64,000 nucleotides of DNA from Leptolyngbya sp. CCY15150. GTDB lineage: Bacteria > Cyanobacteriota > Cyanobacteriia > RECH01. Made by a program: the position numbers and the translations under genes. The notes beneath the pieces are model-generated. The model had not been told where the DNA came from. It ran no database searches and saw nothing but the letters and a program-made list of their open reading frames with translations. The first letter of the stretch is position 1; each line of letters starts with the position of its first letter. The stretch spans positions 62,001 through 126,000 of the forward strand of contig NZ_JACSWB010000207.1 of the NCBI RefSeq assembly GCF_016888135.1, in the 5' to 3' direction. Below are positions 1,305 to 8,434 of the stretch, one piece after another.

Positions 1305-1898
1305 TCAGTCCTCGCGCTGGATAAACTCAGCGGAATTGGCGACATCTGTGGGAGCGTAGTCAATTCGGTAGTTGGCGATCGCGATCGTTGCATCAATCGC
1401 GATCGTTGCATCGGTCTCATCTGTGGCGTCTGGAAACGCAGCGATCGCTGCCTCTGGATTGGTGAAGCAAAACCATAGGCGGCGTTCATCAAAGTCGAAG
1501 CGAGGCAGGGATGAACGAGTTTCATCGACATTGAAACAGGGCGTTCCCTCCGAGGCCCCTGGAAACATAAACTCCGGTTCGTAGGTGCCGCTCACCGTCG
1601 TGGTACCCTCAAACTCAGCCCAGCCCGAGATAATCTGGTTGTTGTCGCCATGGAACATCACCTCAAGGCCGGTGAGTTCTAGCCCAGCAATGCGATCGCC
1701 CACCTGGACATCTTGAGGATCAAACGAGGTGGGCTGATTCCCATCATCTGCCGGTGGCTCATCTTCAGGAGATACCTCTGGCACCTCTGGCACCGGGGGC
1801 AATTCGGGCGGCACATCGGACGGCTCTCCACATGCCCCTAGTCCCACAATAAGACTAGCCAAGCACAAGCCTAGACCACGTTGAACATTGAGCCTCAT
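1305..1898 (-). CDS. Putative lipoprotein of unknown function
   Basis: A 197-residue protein with a lipoprotein signal: a short basic N terminus (MRLNVQR), a hydrophobic stretch to about residue 22, then the lipobox LGAC, so Cys23 is the likely lipidated residue. A Pro/Glu-rich linker follows (about residues 27-58). The C-terminal domain (about 60-197) has two cysteines and is predicted to be periplasmic. It matches no family I recognise. The start is well supported by GGGAGAAG about 6 nt upstream of the ATG. Codons near the C terminus run through HIP1-like words that read as IAIDATIAIA. It lies just downstream of the membrane-protein gene on the same strand, so co-transcription is possible. 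Confidence 0.7.
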   Translation of the reverse strand: MRLNVQRGLGLCLASLIVGLGACGEPSDVPPELPPVPEVPEVSPEDEPPADDGNQPTSFDPQDVQVGDRIAGLELTGLEVMFHGDNNQIISGWAEFEGTTTVSGTYEPEFMFPGASEGTPCFNVDETRSSLPRFDFDERRLWFCFTNPEAAIAAFPDATDETDATIAIDATIAIANYRIDYAPTDVANSAEFIQRED

Positions 1899-1941: not shown

Positions 1942-2961
1942 TTACTGCAACCCCAGCAGCCAGCCCGCCAGCGATCGCCCTCGGCTTTGGGGCGTGATCA
2001 ACTGCTGCCAGACCCAGCGTACAATCCAGCGATTTAGGCGGGGCAAAACAGATCCACGGCACAAGCTCCAGATCACCATCCATCCCATGGAGGCGATCGC
2101 GCCCAGGGCAAGCTGTGGCAAGGCCAGCAACGGTTCAGTCACCAAGAGAGGCAGGCTGTGCCCACAGTTCACCAGAAATACAGACAGACTGCCTCCAACC
2201 ATAATTTTATCAATGTAAACAGAGATACTCAGGCGCAGTTGATGCAGCAGTTGTCCTGAGAGCCAGTGGTGAACGGCAATCATCTCCCCGCAGCGGGGAT
2301 GGCTGAGGGCATGATGGCTAATTTGCTGGAGCAGATCGCCATCAATGGATAGCACCGTGCGCACCACCCGTTGGGCGTCTCCATCCTTGCCGTCATGGTA
2401 GACCGTACAAAAGCTGATGCCAGACTGGGCATAGGCGATCGCCCTCGATCTTGTCCGGCGATAGGTTGGCGGAATCACCTGATATAGAGTTGCCTGACGA
2501 ATCGTAGAACGGAGCTGGTCTGGCAGTTGAGGAGCACGCTTTTGGTAGCAGGCTTCGGTCAGCCGATCCAGGCCATCCGGGGTGAAATGAAACTCGAATT
2601 CACCATGGTCCGCCGTAATCAACACCTGTTCACCCACCGGCATGGCTAGATCAGATGAGGCGATCGCTTGTCTCTCCGTTGCCGTCGTCTTAGACCGAGG
2701 AGTCATCCTCCGTCCCAGCCATTGCCCCAGCCCCTTGCCACCTTGCACCAAGCCCGCCCACAGCAGAGTCAAGGTTTGCCCTAGCAAAACGCCCACGGCT
2801 TTGAGCTTGATAGACCAACGATACCCCCCCTGGATAACCGTCACCGTACGGCTGATCGCAGCCAAGGCATCCCGAATGGTCAGCGATCGCTCTTGTTCCA
2901 GAGGAGCAAACCCAAGTTGGTAGGGCACCGTGAGTTTCGAGGGAGAGTCAGATTGGGTCAT
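1942..2961 (-). CDS. Uncharacterised membrane protein, last gene of the 8434-1942 cluster
   Basis: A 339-residue protein of unknown function. The start at 2961 (MTQSDSPS) overlaps the 3' end of the upstream gene by 14 nt; an in-frame ATG nine codons earlier (2988) would overlap by 41 nt. The N-terminal ~90 residues include a moderately hydrophobic segment ending in GLGQWLGRR. A soluble middle (EFEFHFTPDGLDRLTE onward) reads like a domain rather than linker. The C-terminal third has two to three hydrophobic segments (VFLVNCGHSLPLLV, ALPQLALGAIASMGWMVIW) and ends in basic/aromatic helices. Overlap with the preceding gene argues for translational coupling. I recognise no family. Confidence 0.72.
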   Translation of the reverse strand: MTQSDSPSKLTVPYQLGFAPLEQERSLTIRDALAAISRTVTVIQGGYRWSIKLKAVGVLLGQTLTLLWAGLVQGGKGLGQWLGRRMTPRSKTTATERQAIASSDLAMPVGEQVLITADHGEFEFHFTPDGLDRLTEACYQKRAPQLPDQLRSTIRQATLYQVIPPTYRRTRSRAIAYAQSGISFCTVYHDGKDGDAQRVVRTVLSIDGDLLQQISHHALSHPRCGEMIAVHHWLSGQLLHQLRLSISVYIDKIMVGGSLSVFLVNCGHSLPLLVTEPLLALPQLALGAIASMGWMVIWSLCRGSVLPRLNRWIVRWVWQQLITPQSRGRSLAGWLLGLQ

Positions 2962-3691
2962 TGGGCGATTGCGAACGGCCTGTGTCATGACCAGGGCGCA
3001 AGATTACACGTTGCACCAAGTCAAATAAGAATTTGAGCAACTCTCGCCAGTTGGATTCTCCTGAGGTGACGGCTTCGCTATGCACATGAATCAGAAATTC
3101 CTTATCTTGAGCCGAGAGGCGATCGGAAAACAGTTGTTCATGAAATCGGTTGATGACATCACCATCTAATTGAATCACCGTTTGGGCGTAGATAATATCG
3201 GTAATGTTATTTTGATCTGCCCGCTCCCCACCCATAAGAGCTTCCAATTCACTCAGCTTGCGCAAATTTCGGAGAAACTCACCATCGGATAGCAGCGTCT
3301 CTACAACGGGCTGATCGGTCGGATTGTTAGGATCCGGCACTATATTGACCGAGGTCATCCCCATTTTCTGCATACAGTCCTTACAAGAACTCTGCAGGCT
3401 GCGCCGCAGGGGTTGATACTTACTAGACTCCCCATGACTGTGATACATGGCGTACAGATCTTGATAGGCTTCCTCCGGCAAGAACTTCGCCCCAGTAATC
3501 GTCGAAACGACCATCGTATTCACTTCTAGAGCCGTGATGTCATTAAGCACCTCCGCCAGCGCATTGGCAAATCGCTCAATTTGCTGAACCGCACCCCGAA
3601 CTAGCGAACTCGGCTGGGTCTGAGCAGCCGATCGCGGGGTAGGCGGAATGGCGGAAACGGGAGGCGTTGAACGAGATCTCGAGGATGTCAT
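2948..3691 (-). CDS. Uncharacterised 247-residue protein with a CxxC motif
   Basis: Unknown function. After a Ser/Pro-rich leader (about 1-28), residues ~35-62 read ALAEVLNDI..LEVNTMVVS. This resembles the opening of the two proteins encoded upstream (AL..AL.DA.EL.V.TWVS), so a distant shared N-terminal module is possible; that is my inference by eye. The middle has CKDC, a CxxC pair that could bind metal or form a disulfide. The C-terminal ~90 residues are predicted helical (INRFHEQLF, LLKFLFDLVQRVI). The start has AGGA about 12 nt upstream. The gene overlaps the next one and sits about 200 bp after the acidic repeat protein. No enzymatic motif is visible. Confidence 0.72.
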   Translation of the reverse strand: MTSSRSRSTPPVSAIPPTPRSAAQTQPSSLVRGAVQQIERFANALAEVLNDITALEVNTMVVSTITGAKFLPEEAYQDLYAMYHSHGESSKYQPLRRSLQSSCKDCMQKMGMTSVNIVPDPNNPTDQPVVETLLSDGEFLRNLRKLSELEALMGGERADQNNITDIIYAQTVIQLDGDVINRFHEQLFSDRLSAQDKEFLIHVHSEAVTSGESNWRELLKFLFDLVQRVILRPGHDTGRSQSPNDPI

Positions 3692-3895
3692 CGGTGCATG
3701 TCCTGAGGTGAACCGGCAGGTCGTCTGATGAAACCATGCAGAATCAACGGTTTGAGTCTAGCCTGATCTGCAGGTCGTCATGGGTCACAGCCAGACATCA
3801 GCTAGCTGCGATCGCTCTGAAGCTCACGACAGACGCTGACCACCCAGTGCGATCGCCATATGATACTGCATTCTTCCTCAAAGTGGCCGGAGCCC

Positions 3896-6800
3896 TTAGG
3901 AATTGAGTTCATCCCAGGGGTCGGGTAGATGGGAAGGATGTTGGGGATGCTCGGTAGGAGCTGATGACGATGGTTTCATCGGATCGGCCGATCCTTCCAT
4001 CGCCTCCCAAAGATCGCTGAGATCCACCTCCTCATCGAGCAATTGCTCCACCGCCCCATCAGGATCAGCCGTTTGGTCAAACAACTCTTCTAACTGTTGC
4101 TCCGTGGAAGTCAAGTCATCCTGTAGATCCAGCAAGATATCAGGTTCATCTGGAGCTGCACTGGGCTCTAGCTCCATGTCGGTGAATAATCCTAGAGGAT
4201 CGGCATCATCCTCCGCCGACTCATCATCAGCATTCAAATTAATCCAGTCCAAATCTTCCACAGAACTCGTTGAAGAACTGGGCTGATCTGAGAGGAAGAG
4301 GGGCTCATCCTGCGGCAGGTCGAACGATGTAGCGGCAGGATCATCCGTGCTGCTAGGCAGATCGTCCATCAATGAAAAGGGTTCATCAGCAGCATCAGAC
4401 GCATCCAAGTCATTCATTTGCTCCATCAGCTCACCGAAGTCCATATCGTCTGAAGCTTCCAAAACCTCAGGATCTTGCTGCTCCACAGACGGGATGGCAA
4501 AGGGATCCAGGTCAGCTTCTACATCAACGCCCTCGGCAGAAGGCTCGAAATGCGACAGATCTAGATCATCCACCTCAGCGATCGCTTCTGGCTCTAACGT
4601 GGGGAACAACCCCTCGTCTACATCTGAGTCGGGAGCGATCGCTTCTGGCTCTGACTCAGCAAACAACTCTTCGTAAACATCGGAGTCGGAGTCGAGAGCG
4701 ATCGCCTCTGACTCCGGTTCAGCAAACAGTTCTTCATAGTCGTTCGAGTCTGTGTCGAGAGCGATCGCTTCGGGTTCCGGTTCAGCAAACAACTCTTCGT
4801 AGTTGTCCGAGCCTGTGTCGAGAGCGATCGCTTCAGATTCTGGTTCAGCAAACAGCTCTTCGTAGTTGTCCGAGCCTGTATCGAGAGCGATCGCCTCTGA
4901 CTCCGGTTCAGCAAACAACTCTTCGTAGTCGTTCGAGTCGGAATCGAGAGCGATCGCTTCAGATTCTGGTTCAGCAAACAGCTCTTCGTAGTTGTCCGAG
5001 CCTGTGTCGAGAGCGATCGCCTCTGACTCCGGTTCAGCAAACAGCTCTTCGTAGTCGTTCGAGTCGGAATCGAGAGCGATCGCCTCGGGTTCTGGCGTAG
5101 ACAACAGATCCTCTTCAACAGATGAGGGATTCAGTTCACGTTCAATCAGCAGATCGTTGAGATCCGATACATCATCTGGATTATCCTCATCCGTCGGAGA
5201 CGGCAATGATGCTGACGAATCATCATCATCAAACTGACCTAGAAAAACCTGAAAATCTTGCAGGGCGTCTTCCGTGACTTCTGTACTGGTAAACTCATCC
5301 TCCAGCCCATCATCTAACTCATGATCCAGACGTTCCTCAGTCTCGTTGAGCCGTTCATCGGTTAAATCTAAATCGCCATCCAGATACGTTGCTTCGCCAT
5401 CTGCTAGCCCATCTGCTAGCTCATCCTCCATCTCTTGATCGGCAACCGCTGCAAGACTCAAAGACTCAGCTTCCGCCTCATCCATAGAAAGCGGCTCTGT
5501 CGATGGGAAAGTATCTGCGTTTAGGTGATCAGTATTTTCTAGCTCAAATAAGTCAGATAATTCATCTTCCGACATTTCGACCGCTTCATCAACCATGGGC
5601 TCATCCAGCGACAGATTGACCACCGATGGATCCGACTCAAACTCTAGGTCATCAATACCAGGATCAGACGCGATCGCTTGGATAAAATCAGCCTGCTCCA
5701 AAATATCCGAGTCAAGCTCTAGAAAAGCCCTAGGTTCATCCGAGGATAGATCCCCCATTTCCTCCAGCGGCAAGTCGTCGTCTAATGAGAGCTCATCCGC
5801 TAACAGCAGCTCGTCCGCTACCTGCAAGTCATCGCCTAACGGCAGGTCTTCCTCTAACTGCAAGTCGTCAATGGGTTGAAACTCCATGCCATCAAGCGGC
5901 AGGTCGTCGTCATCGTCTGGTAATGCCTCGTCAATCTGCAGGTCTCCATCAAGCTGGAGTTCCTCAACAAACTGGAGTTCCTCAACAAGCTGTGCGTCTT
6001 GAAAGTCTAACGGAGGTTCTTCAACAAGCTGCCCATCTTCATCAGCCTGAAGGTCTGGCTGAAGGTCGAACTGCCGATCCATGCCATCAAGCTGGAGTTC
6101 TTCATAAACCGGCAGTTCATCGTCTAGCTGAAGCTCCTCCAGAGCGATCGCTGCTTCTGTAGGTTCCGGTTCCACCTCGGTACCCGGCTCAGTCATAGGC
6201 TCAACCGGAGCTGGCTCCACCGGAGACGGGGTCGTCGGTGGTCGTTTCTTGGGCAGGGGATGGAGGGGCGTCATCTCCGCCAGCGATCGCAAATTCGTAG
6301 CGCGATCGCCCGGTGCCACCATCGCTTCTAGATCGGCAGCGGTATAGGAGTTCAGCAAATCGCGCTCTAGAAGATGCAGTTCCTCCGCAACATCCATCGG
6401 CACCAGCGGTTCTTGGGGAGCCTGGCTAGCCGCAACCTCAAGCTGATGCTGTAGATCTTCTGGCAAAGCCGCCGAGGCGATCGCTGCGTCAATCATGTCA
6501 GCGCTAACCGTTTCTGCCACGGCATGATCCTCATCCCCAATCTCAGGGAAAGGCTCTGGAGAAAAGTCTGGAGACAACTCAGGACTTTCCCCATCGGTCA
6601 GCACGTCGTCCGACCTGAGATCTGTCTCAGAGAGTTCCAGATCTAAATCCTCTAGATCTAAGGCTTCCAGATCTAAGGCTTCCAGATCCAAGCCACCTGG
6701 CTCTGAGACCTCTAGATCTAAGACCTCCAGACCGGAGCTATCGGGCTCTAAGCTATCGGGTTCTGAACTATCGGGTTCCAAAGCCGTCATGTCTACGTCG

Positions 6801-7831
6801 GAGTTCAGCAGATCTGGCTCAATCAGATCTGCGCCGTCAGGCAGGTATGACAGATCTCCCAGCTCCGGATCTTCCCTTAGCATCGCCGCGGCATTCACGG
6901 CATCATCAACCGATGCAGTCTCTGCCACACTCTGATCGACAACCTGATCCTCAGGGGCGATCGCTTCTTCCAAATCCTCGTACAGTAAATCTGAAATATC
7001 CAAATCATCGCCGGGGAGCGGATCGAGAGAAGGATGATCAAAAATAGCATCCGCCTCATCCAAGCTGATTAAGGTGTTGTGGAACGCAAGGTCTCCCAAC
7101 TCAGGATCATCGGCCAGCATCGTCGCCGCATCTGGTTGCTCAGGATGATCCTGCGGCATGGGCCCCGGCTCCACCAGCAAATCATCCAAATCGATGTCTC
7201 GACCAATATCATCTAAAGATAGAGGAGCCTCTGGTATAGCCTCTGGTATGGGCTGATCCATCAACGGTTCCGCCCCCAAAATTCCAGACCCAGACTCAGA
7301 TATCACGGCATCGCCTAGGACCCGATTTTCAGCGATCGCCCACTCCGGTTCATCCGCCGTCACGCCCAAGGGATGCGCCTGTGGATCACCCTGCCATGCA
7401 CCATTCAGAGCATCCGGTGGTACGTCATAGGTCGGCAGTTCAACCGTGGATGCGTCTGGCGAACTAGGCCGCCGCCCTTGACGCACCTGCACCAACACCT
7501 GAAAGAGATGCTGCACCGTACGCAGATTTTCGTGGATAATGTCAAACCCGCGCTTTACCTGATCGTCATGAAAGTCTCGCAGTTCGCTATAGGCCCCATC
7601 TAAGAACTCACGGCCAATTTCATGTTCAACATCGCCCTCTAGGATATTGATGCGGGTTTGCATCCGTTTTCCAGGGCTGGGGCGCTCTTCCCCCTGAGAC
7701 CAGTCGGATCCATCGCCCGTAGATACCCAGGTCACGACATGCAGTTCTATCGCGTCCGTCAGAGCTGTAGCAAGGGCCTGCTGAAAGCGGCCGGCTTGTA
7801 GTTCCTTCGAAAATTCATCCCGTGCAGTCAT
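3896..7831 (-). CDS. Giant acidic repeat protein with N-terminal TWVS/REFLDG module
   Basis: A 1311-residue protein, extremely rich in Asp, Glu, Leu and Ser. Residues ~1-118 form a compact module with VVTWVS, RMQTRINI, EIGREFLDG and ELRDFH, closely matching almost the entire neighbouring 151-residue protein. The rest is low complexity: LDLEALDLE-type repeats near 370-400, an ELQLDDELP-like block near 560-700, and seven to nine copies of a 21-residue repeat (EAIALD..S..YEELFAEPES) near 905-1088. No transmembrane segment or enzyme motif is seen. I infer a largely disordered acidic tail attached to a small folded head, perhaps a scaffold or binding platform. No clear Shine-Dalgarno precedes the ATG. 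Function is unknown. Confidence 0.85.
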   Translation of the reverse strand: MTARDEFSKELQAGRFQQALATALTDAIELHVVTWVSTGDGSDWSQGEERPSPGKRMQTRINILEGDVEHEIGREFLDGAYSELRDFHDDQVKRGFDIIHENLRTVQHLFQVLVQVRQGRRPSSPDASTVELPTYDVPPDALNGAWQGDPQAHPLGVTADEPEWAIAENRVLGDAVISESGSGILGAEPLMDQPIPEAIPEAPLSLDDIGRDIDLDDLLVEPGPMPQDHPEQPDAATMLADDPELGDLAFHNTLISLDEADAIFDHPSLDPLPGDDLDISDLLYEDLEEAIAPEDQVVDQSVAETASVDDAVNAAAMLREDPELGDLSYLPDGADLIEPDLLNSDVDMTALEPDSSEPDSLEPDSSGLEVLDLEVSEPGGLDLEALDLEALDLEDLDLELSETDLRSDDVLTDGESPELSPDFSPEPFPEIGDEDHAVAETVSADMIDAAIASAALPEDLQHQLEVAASQAPQEPLVPMDVAEELHLLERDLLNSYTAADLEAMVAPGDRATNLRSLAEMTPLHPLPKKRPPTTPSPVEPAPVEPMTEPGTEVEPEPTEAAIALEELQLDDELPVYEELQLDGMDRQFDLQPDLQADEDGQLVEEPPLDFQDAQLVEELQFVEELQLDGDLQIDEALPDDDDDLPLDGMEFQPIDDLQLEEDLPLGDDLQVADELLLADELSLDDDLPLEEMGDLSSDEPRAFLELDSDILEQADFIQAIASDPGIDDLEFESDPSVVNLSLDEPMVDEAVEMSEDELSDLFELENTDHLNADTFPSTEPLSMDEAEAESLSLAAVADQEMEDELADGLADGEATYLDGDLDLTDERLNETEERLDHELDDGLEDEFTSTEVTEDALQDFQVFLGQFDDDDSSASLPSPTDEDNPDDVSDLNDLLIERELNPSSVEEDLLSTPEPEAIALDSDSNDYEELFAEPESEAIALDTGSDNYEELFAEPESEAIALDSDSNDYEELFAEPESEAIALDTGSDNYEELFAEPESEAIALDTGSDNYEELFAEPEPEAIALDTDSNDYEELFAEPESEAIALDSDSDVYEELFAESEPEAIAPDSDVDEGLFPTLEPEAIAEVDDLDLSHFEPSAEGVDVEADLDPFAIPSVEQQDPEVLEASDDMDFGELMEQMNDLDASDAADEPFSLMDDLPSSTDDPAATSFDLPQDEPLFLSDQPSSSTSSVEDLDWINLNADDESAEDDADPLGLFTDMELEPSAAPDEPDILLDLQDDLTSTEQQLEELFDQTADPDGAVEQLLDEEVDLSDLWEAMEGSADPMKPSSSAPTEHPQHPSHLPDPWDELNS
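4578..5083 (-). repeat. 63-bp coding tandem repeat phased by HIP1 (GCGATCGC)
   Basis: Inside the acidic repeat gene, GCGATCGC begins at 4578, 4635, 4698, 4761, 4824, 4887, 4950, 5013 and 5076. The last eight are exactly 63 bp apart and the first interval is 57 bp. Each unit encodes 21 residues, with the HIP1 palindrome always reading E-A-I-A. Units alternate between two subtypes (DTGSDNYEELF and DSDSNDYEELF), which points to expansion of dimers or to gene conversion. Because 63 is a multiple of three, all frames stay open, giving spurious long ORFs on both strands. Confidence 0.95.
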
Positions 7832-7954
7832 GACTGTTATTGGTGAAGAGGATTAGGAAAGCGCGGATGGGTAGGCAGATGGCATTTATCCCATTGTATG
7901 GTCAGGCTAGAATGCCACGCCACCCAGGCAGGTATCGCTGATTTGACCAGATGT

Positions 7955-7976
7955 CAGGGTGTTATCAGCAACCCTG
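7955..7976. other. Hairpin between the two module genes
   Basis: CAGGGT (7955-7960) pairs with ACCCTG (7971-7976) across a 10-nt loop, directly after the stop codon of the 151-residue gene. No T-run follows on the minus strand, so it is not a standard terminator. It may protect the 3' end, or partly attenuate read-through into the acidic repeat gene. Confidence 0.4.
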
Positions 7977-7978
7977 CC

Positions 7979-8434
7979 CTAGGACGTTGGGGGAGATCCT
8001 GGATGAGACTCACTGCTCGACAAAAGGCGGGGATCTGCACTAGCGGGGCGCGATCGCGATATGCGAGATAGACCTTGCAGCGTGTCCGATAGGGTCAGAA
8101 AAAGTTGCTGAAGATTATCTAAATTTTGGCGAATAATGCCCATGCCCTTGTCCACTTCTCTGAGGTGGAAGTCACGCAGCTCTGCATAGGGGCCGTCTAA
8201 AAACTCGCGCCCGATCTCATTTTCAATATCACCATCCACAATGTTGATGCGGGTATGCATCCGAAAACCAGGGCGAGGACGGTTATAGTCATCGGCGTTT
8301 TCACTCCCTGGCGGCGGCGTTTCAGAGACCCAGGTGGTGATGTCTAGCTCAACGGCTTCTCCGAGGGCAATGGTCAGGGCCTTGCCAATATTTCCAGCCG
8401 CTAAGGCTTCTTTAAATTGATCACTTGCAGCCAT
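7979..8434 (-). CDS. Small stand-alone TWVS/REFLDG module protein
   Basis: A 151-residue cytosolic-looking protein of unknown function, and the first gene of the 8434-1942 cluster. Its core (~4-125) parallels the N terminus of the giant acidic protein: AL..AL..A.EL, TTWVS, RMHTRINI, EIGREFLDG, ELRDFH, then a helical segment IIRQNL. This makes the two genes tandem paralogs, one with an added acidic tail. The C-terminal ~30 residues are Ser/Pro-rich and probably disordered. The ATG at 8434 is chosen because AAGGAGG lies 7 nt upstream; an in-frame Met eleven codons earlier would have to run through that site. No catalytic motif is visible. Confidence 0.85.
   Translation of the reverse strand: MAASDQFKEALAAGNIGKALTIALGEAVELDITTWVSETPPPGSENADDYNRPRPGFRMHTRINIVDGDIENEIGREFLDGPYAELRDFHLREVDKGMGIIRQNLDNLQQLFLTLSDTLQGLSRISRSRPASADPRLLSSSESHPGSPPTS

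Follow-up and report, generated by a model that had tools for sequence, protein, structure and literature searches.

A conserved cyanobacterial gene cluster predicted to encode four copies of an undescribed module, a long acidic arm and a membrane anchor

Introduction

A 64,000-nt stretch of DNA from Leptolyngbya sp. CCY15150 (here called the window) carries, near its beginning, four neighbouring genes of uncharacterised function. They raise the question of whether their products belong together and, if so, what kind of system they might form. The original prediction recognised a module shared by two of the four proteins and regarded the genes as parts of one system. Here we compare the four proteins with one another, with their relatives in other genomes and with known families. 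We propose that they may be the components of an undescribed membrane-anchored assembly, a reading to which we assign a probability of roughly one in three.

Results

The four genes

The minus strand between 1942 and 8467 contains four neighbouring ORFs, each with one module of about 115 residues. All four lie where the original prediction had placed them, on the same strand (Table 1). The start of the small gene is set at an ATG; an upstream TTG would lengthen the ORF to 8467. The overlap announced between the membrane gene and the third gene measures 41 nt, or 14 nt if the second ATG of the membrane gene is used. Hydropathy, from which alone membrane topology was assessed, peaks at residues 255-306 of the membrane protein, with a weaker peak at 64-82. 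Hydrophobic segments were found in every membrane-protein orthologue scanned and in none of the three other window proteins. Scans for promoters and terminators gave results no better than those obtained with shuffles. An ORF of lipoprotein-like sequence (LIVGLGAC; window 1305-1898, minus strand) begins 43 nt past the membrane gene; among the loci searched, its matches are confined to the same genus.

Table 1. Features of the four-gene locus (window positions).
Feature	Position	Strand	Basis
Small stand-alone module protein, 151 aa	7979..8434	-	ORF, ATG start
Giant protein, 1,311 aa	3896-7831	-	ORF
Module at the giant N-terminus, residues 1-120	7472..7831	-	match to small protein
Giant tail, acidic, low-complexity, probably disordered, about 1,190 residues	3896..7471	-	composition
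63-bp (21-residue) tandem repeat in giant tail, about 7 copies	4623-5086	-	
Third protein, 247 aa; helical insert between module strands 1 and 2	2948..3691	-	profile comparison, AlphaFold
Membrane protein, 348 aa; divergent module, then hydrophobic segments	1942..2988	-	profile comparison, hydropathy

One module in all four proteins

As originally proposed, the small protein and the N-terminus of the giant share a module: they are 52% identical over 121 residues (E 1.7e-32), and are the sole two copies that this sequence search detected in the 5.75 Mb genome. Three alignments were built, A1 from module proteins, A2 from third proteins and A3 from membrane proteins, and compared in pairs with hhalign; unrelated neighbour families served as decoys. 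Once the insert of the third protein was removed, A1 matched A2 with an E-value of 2.7e-6 over 92 columns and a score of 40.8, the best decoy scoring 21.0; the suspected resemblance of the third protein to the module is thus borne out. A3 matched A2 (E 1.3e-6), the C-terminal half of A2 (7e-8) and A1 (4e-5), with decoys at 0.09 or worse. The module had been claimed for two proteins, which holds for those two, but the number was too low, since profile comparison places it in the third and membrane proteins as well.

The AlphaFold model of the small protein (pLDDT 85.6, pTM 0.62) shows the predicted order helix-helix-strand-strand-strand-short helix-long helix. In the model of the third protein (pLDDT 80.8, pTM 0.53) this order recurs, except that five helices are inserted after strand 1 and before strand 2 (H29-51, E54-61, five helices, E166-174, E179-183, H194-231). 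Homology between the small and third proteins is thus argued by a profile match above decoys together with the same predicted order of strands and helices. In the alignments, a hydrophobic-x-T motif in strand 1, a DGD turn and a His in the long helix recur across module types. Altogether, it is well supported that the four proteins are paralogues of one predicted alpha-beta-beta-beta-alpha module whose genes keep a conserved order, one of them being membrane-anchored, one interrupted by a helical insert and one extended by a long polyanionic tail.

This fold order brings to mind the nucleoid-associated, DNA-binding YbaB/EbfC family (PF02575), in which a helix, three strands and a long helix follow one another in a similar way. 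Were the module a distant relative of this family, the tail could be a DNA mimic or an autoinhibitor, and the cluster could tether or regulate DNA at the membrane. When Foldseek was run with the small module, the YbaB structures 1j8b, 1pug, 3f42 and 1ybx ranked near the top, and 1pug appeared again for the third protein; however, these matches are non-significant (E 0.57-5.1, probability 0.28 or less). Comparison of A1 with 20 cyanobacterial YbaB proteins in hhalign gave an E-value of 0.004 over 19 helix columns, where it scored 23.2 and the best decoy 21.0. The cut third and membrane profiles gave no match to YbaB, and none of 44 module members matches PF02575. Unlike YbaB/EbfC, the module has an extra N-terminal helix, and its strands 1 and 2 are separated by a long loop; the module family has acidic or membrane fusions and an operon-like group of four paralogues. 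With profile comparison so close to decoys, homology to YbaB was rejected and this explanation of the cluster is unlikely.

The acidic tail of the giant protein

Past residue 118, the giant protein continues for 1,193 residues, of which 31% are D or E and 1.5% K or R, for a net charge of -350. The tail contains a 21-residue tandem repeat, and the description of the giant as the module followed by some 1200 acidic, repetitive residues was accurate. The repeat units are built on the HIP1 palindrome, the octamer GCGATCGC, read as Ala-Ile-Ala; throughout the giant gene, 14 of 16 HIP1 sites lie in this one coding frame. Orthologous tails range in length from 48 to 1,813 aa and in net charge from -14 to -42 per 100 residues, mostly from -22 to -42. 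Maintenance of charge density and composition while length varies is as expected of a flexible charged arm, and the tail may, as first suggested, be an "acidic scaffold". Shuffling predicts 2.6 occurrences of the motif [DN]P[FL]A in the tails, and 27 were observed; the background consists of shuffles of the same proteins only, and some patterns were picked after the C-termini had been seen. Several short tails end in acidic-Trp runs instead of this motif.

A charge density this extreme and conserved, at variable length, would also suit a high-capacity, low-affinity buffer of Ca2+ or Mg2+, or a mineral template at the membrane. Against such a role, three-gene loci persist without any acidic tail, and none of the conserved neighbours was recognised as a transporter or biomineralisation gene. 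We regard it as improbable.

Distribution and gene order in cyanobacteria

Among 291 cyanobacterial genomes sampled across the class, 53 carry the module, 44 the third gene and 39 the membrane gene, a few of these last matches being weak; by a quality-filtered tally, the module occurs in 22 of 130 genera. In relatives, genes were taken as the longest ORFs, with uncurated starts. The order small-giant-third-membrane, all on one strand, is found in the window and in many distantly related cyanobacterial families, as the survey of gene neighbourhoods suggested with the original prediction was meant to establish. The arrangement varies: small-third-membrane, with no giant, in Pseudanabaenaceae and family f32; giant-third-membrane at other examined loci; small-giant-third in f40 (f32 and f40 being working handles for lineages). 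Other genomes have small-giant or the giant alone, and those tested by profile search are without a third or membrane gene. Third and membrane genes are nearly always found in each other's company, and their overlap recurs in relatives (14 to 50 nt). Thus the view of the four genes as one system is upheld by their conserved order, but the giant is not an obligatory member and some genomes keep the giant only.

Individual loci show further peculiarities. In Pseudanabaena, two small conserved genes (about 130 and 87 aa) with no Pfam match precede the three-gene cluster (e.g. L138 7758-8602). At one locus (L126 616-11226), about 8.2 kb with other genes separate a short giant gene from the third gene. 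In two genomes the membrane-gene match contains an in-frame stop (G277 C4:7292-7894 and G225 C5:45261-45791), perhaps a sign of cluster decay. In G002 the cluster is split over contigs C139 and C316 and the giant gene runs off one of them, perhaps due to repeats.

Neighbours that recur across loci are maf, hemL and genes named from sequence as prk-like and petH-like; hemL and psaK lie inside the window. Neighbours shared in this way speak for a cluster that has been inherited vertically and lost frequently, and that looks, from these sequence comparisons, ancient. The neighbourhood also prompts the thought of a factor in thylakoid or photosystem II biogenesis. Besides hemL and psaK, maf is present at 17 examined module loci and psbP at 12 of these 17. 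However, psbP and maf are adjacent in 12 of 22 genomes without the module. Being equally common there, the adjacency points to an ancestral chromosomal place and not to a functional link. Most sampled cyanobacteria are without the cluster, and the module is also found in Azospirillum, which is non-photosynthetic. A role in biogenesis of the photosynthetic apparatus is thus quite unlikely.

Selection on the window genes

The dN/dS ratios of the window genes, computed against two congeners, are 0.03 for the small protein, 0.00-0.02 for the giant module, 0.10-0.13 for the third protein, 0.17-0.20 for the membrane protein and 0.25-0.29 for the giant tail, the last with many indels. At dN/dS 0-0.03, purifying selection on the small and giant modules is very strong. 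Conservation of their residues would also be compatible with an enzymatic or ligand-binding role.

The cluster in Azospirillum

In a tblastn search of plasmids, the module was detected in Azospirillum only, where megaplasmids carry it. The two regions read have the order parA-parB-module-third-membrane-like; on plasmid ABSP7_p2 of Azospirillum brasilense Sp 7, this group lies at L165 7746-11796. The cluster proteins of A. brasilense Sp7 bear the locus tags AMK58_RS24010-24020. The third-type protein is recognised by the A2 profile (E 6.7e-8 in a search of six proteins). The product of the last gene is small, has a DGD motif and a single hydrophobic segment, and goes unrecognised by the A3 profile; from its place and pattern, it is likely to be the counterpart of the membrane protein.

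The position of the module genes directly after parA-parB in both regions might indicate that module proteins are cargo for partition or positioning, as partners of a ParA/ParB-type system. Near-identical parA and parB accompany the module in each of the seven Azospirillum plasmid records that contain it. However, related parAB also occur on many Azospirillum replicons that lack the module, so the neighbour may be a mere plasmid partition locus. ParA/ParB systems adjoin the cluster in Azospirillum but are absent from the cyanobacterial loci examined, where no homologue of either Azospirillum protein was found; module proteins match neither ParA, ParB nor any other Pfam family. A link limited to Azospirillum was not retained, and this interpretation is very unlikely.

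Comparison with known families

Pfam and NCBIfam gave no significant match for any of the four window proteins, and scans of 44, 30 and 27 orthologues produced nothing beyond isolated weak matches, each in one member. Profile searches of solved structures (PDB) returned no match for the module and, for the third protein, none that was significant; Foldseek found no significant fold for the small or the third protein. The PADLOC and PHROG models gave no significant match, with two weak ones at E 0.007 and 0.049. Literature searches retrieved nothing on the module family. The module family therefore has no match among curated families or solved structures and, as judged from sequence and predicted fold, is previously undescribed. 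A match to a characterised family had been named as a finding that would refute the original prediction, and none of these resources supplied one.

Further candidates were rejected. The gas vesicle proteins GvpA/GvpJ (PF00741) resemble the module in being small, in their helix-strand-strand core and in forming clusters of paralogues. In a first sample, gas vesicle genes were present in 14 of 16 third-gene genomes against 42 of 100 others (Fisher p 0.0008, uncorrected for relatedness, as gene-presence statistics here take no account of phylogeny). The association failed in 41 module-positive genomes tested next (two of them, G086 and G021, shared with the first sample), where gvp (PF00741) was present in 17 and absent in 24; in hhalign, the GvpA/GvpJ profile scored at or below decoys against the module family. 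No sign of an anti-phage defence, phage or viral origin came from the PADLOC and PHROG searches or from searches of phage records and viral contigs, in which the module was not found. The thylakoid-formation protein Thf1 entered an iterative search once (L112) and was absent when a clean profile was used, and was accordingly treated as profile drift.

Discussion

The boldest reading is an undescribed membrane-anchored assembly, made of four copies of a new fold and a giant polyanionic disordered arm, which would be ancestral to many cyanobacteria, be present also in Azospirillum and organise cargo or a region of membrane. The explanation that we prefer, to which we give somewhat under even odds, is that the four paralogous modules and the polyanionic flexible arm are parts of one membrane-tethered hetero-oligomer.

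Such an assembly would have arisen by tandem duplication of one module family, earlier than the divergence of most cyanobacterial lineages that carry it. The modules may bind one another through their shared core, namely helix 1, a three-stranded sheet with a widely kept DGD turn and a long helix with a conserved His, and thereby assemble into a hetero-oligomer at the cytoplasmic side of a membrane. The membrane paralogue would anchor it; the third protein would act as spacer or adaptor, and the small one would make up the bulk of the complex or cap it. The tail of the giant could serve as a flexible negative arm, maintaining hydration and spacing of the complex; alternatively, it might collect basic proteins or cations by way of its aromatic-acidic motifs (DPFA, DW). 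Several lineages do without the giant, and elsewhere the module pair or the giant occurs without third and membrane genes, which argues against a universal fixed complex.

In conclusion, strongly constrained modules and a gene order kept across distant cyanobacterial families coexist here with a lack of any curated family or solved structure. Tails of very different length at similar charge density offer a natural series in which to examine how disordered proteins function. A four-paralogue membrane assembly with a tunable acidic arm is a prediction that could be tested in culturable organisms, Pseudanabaena or Azospirillum brasilense Sp7.
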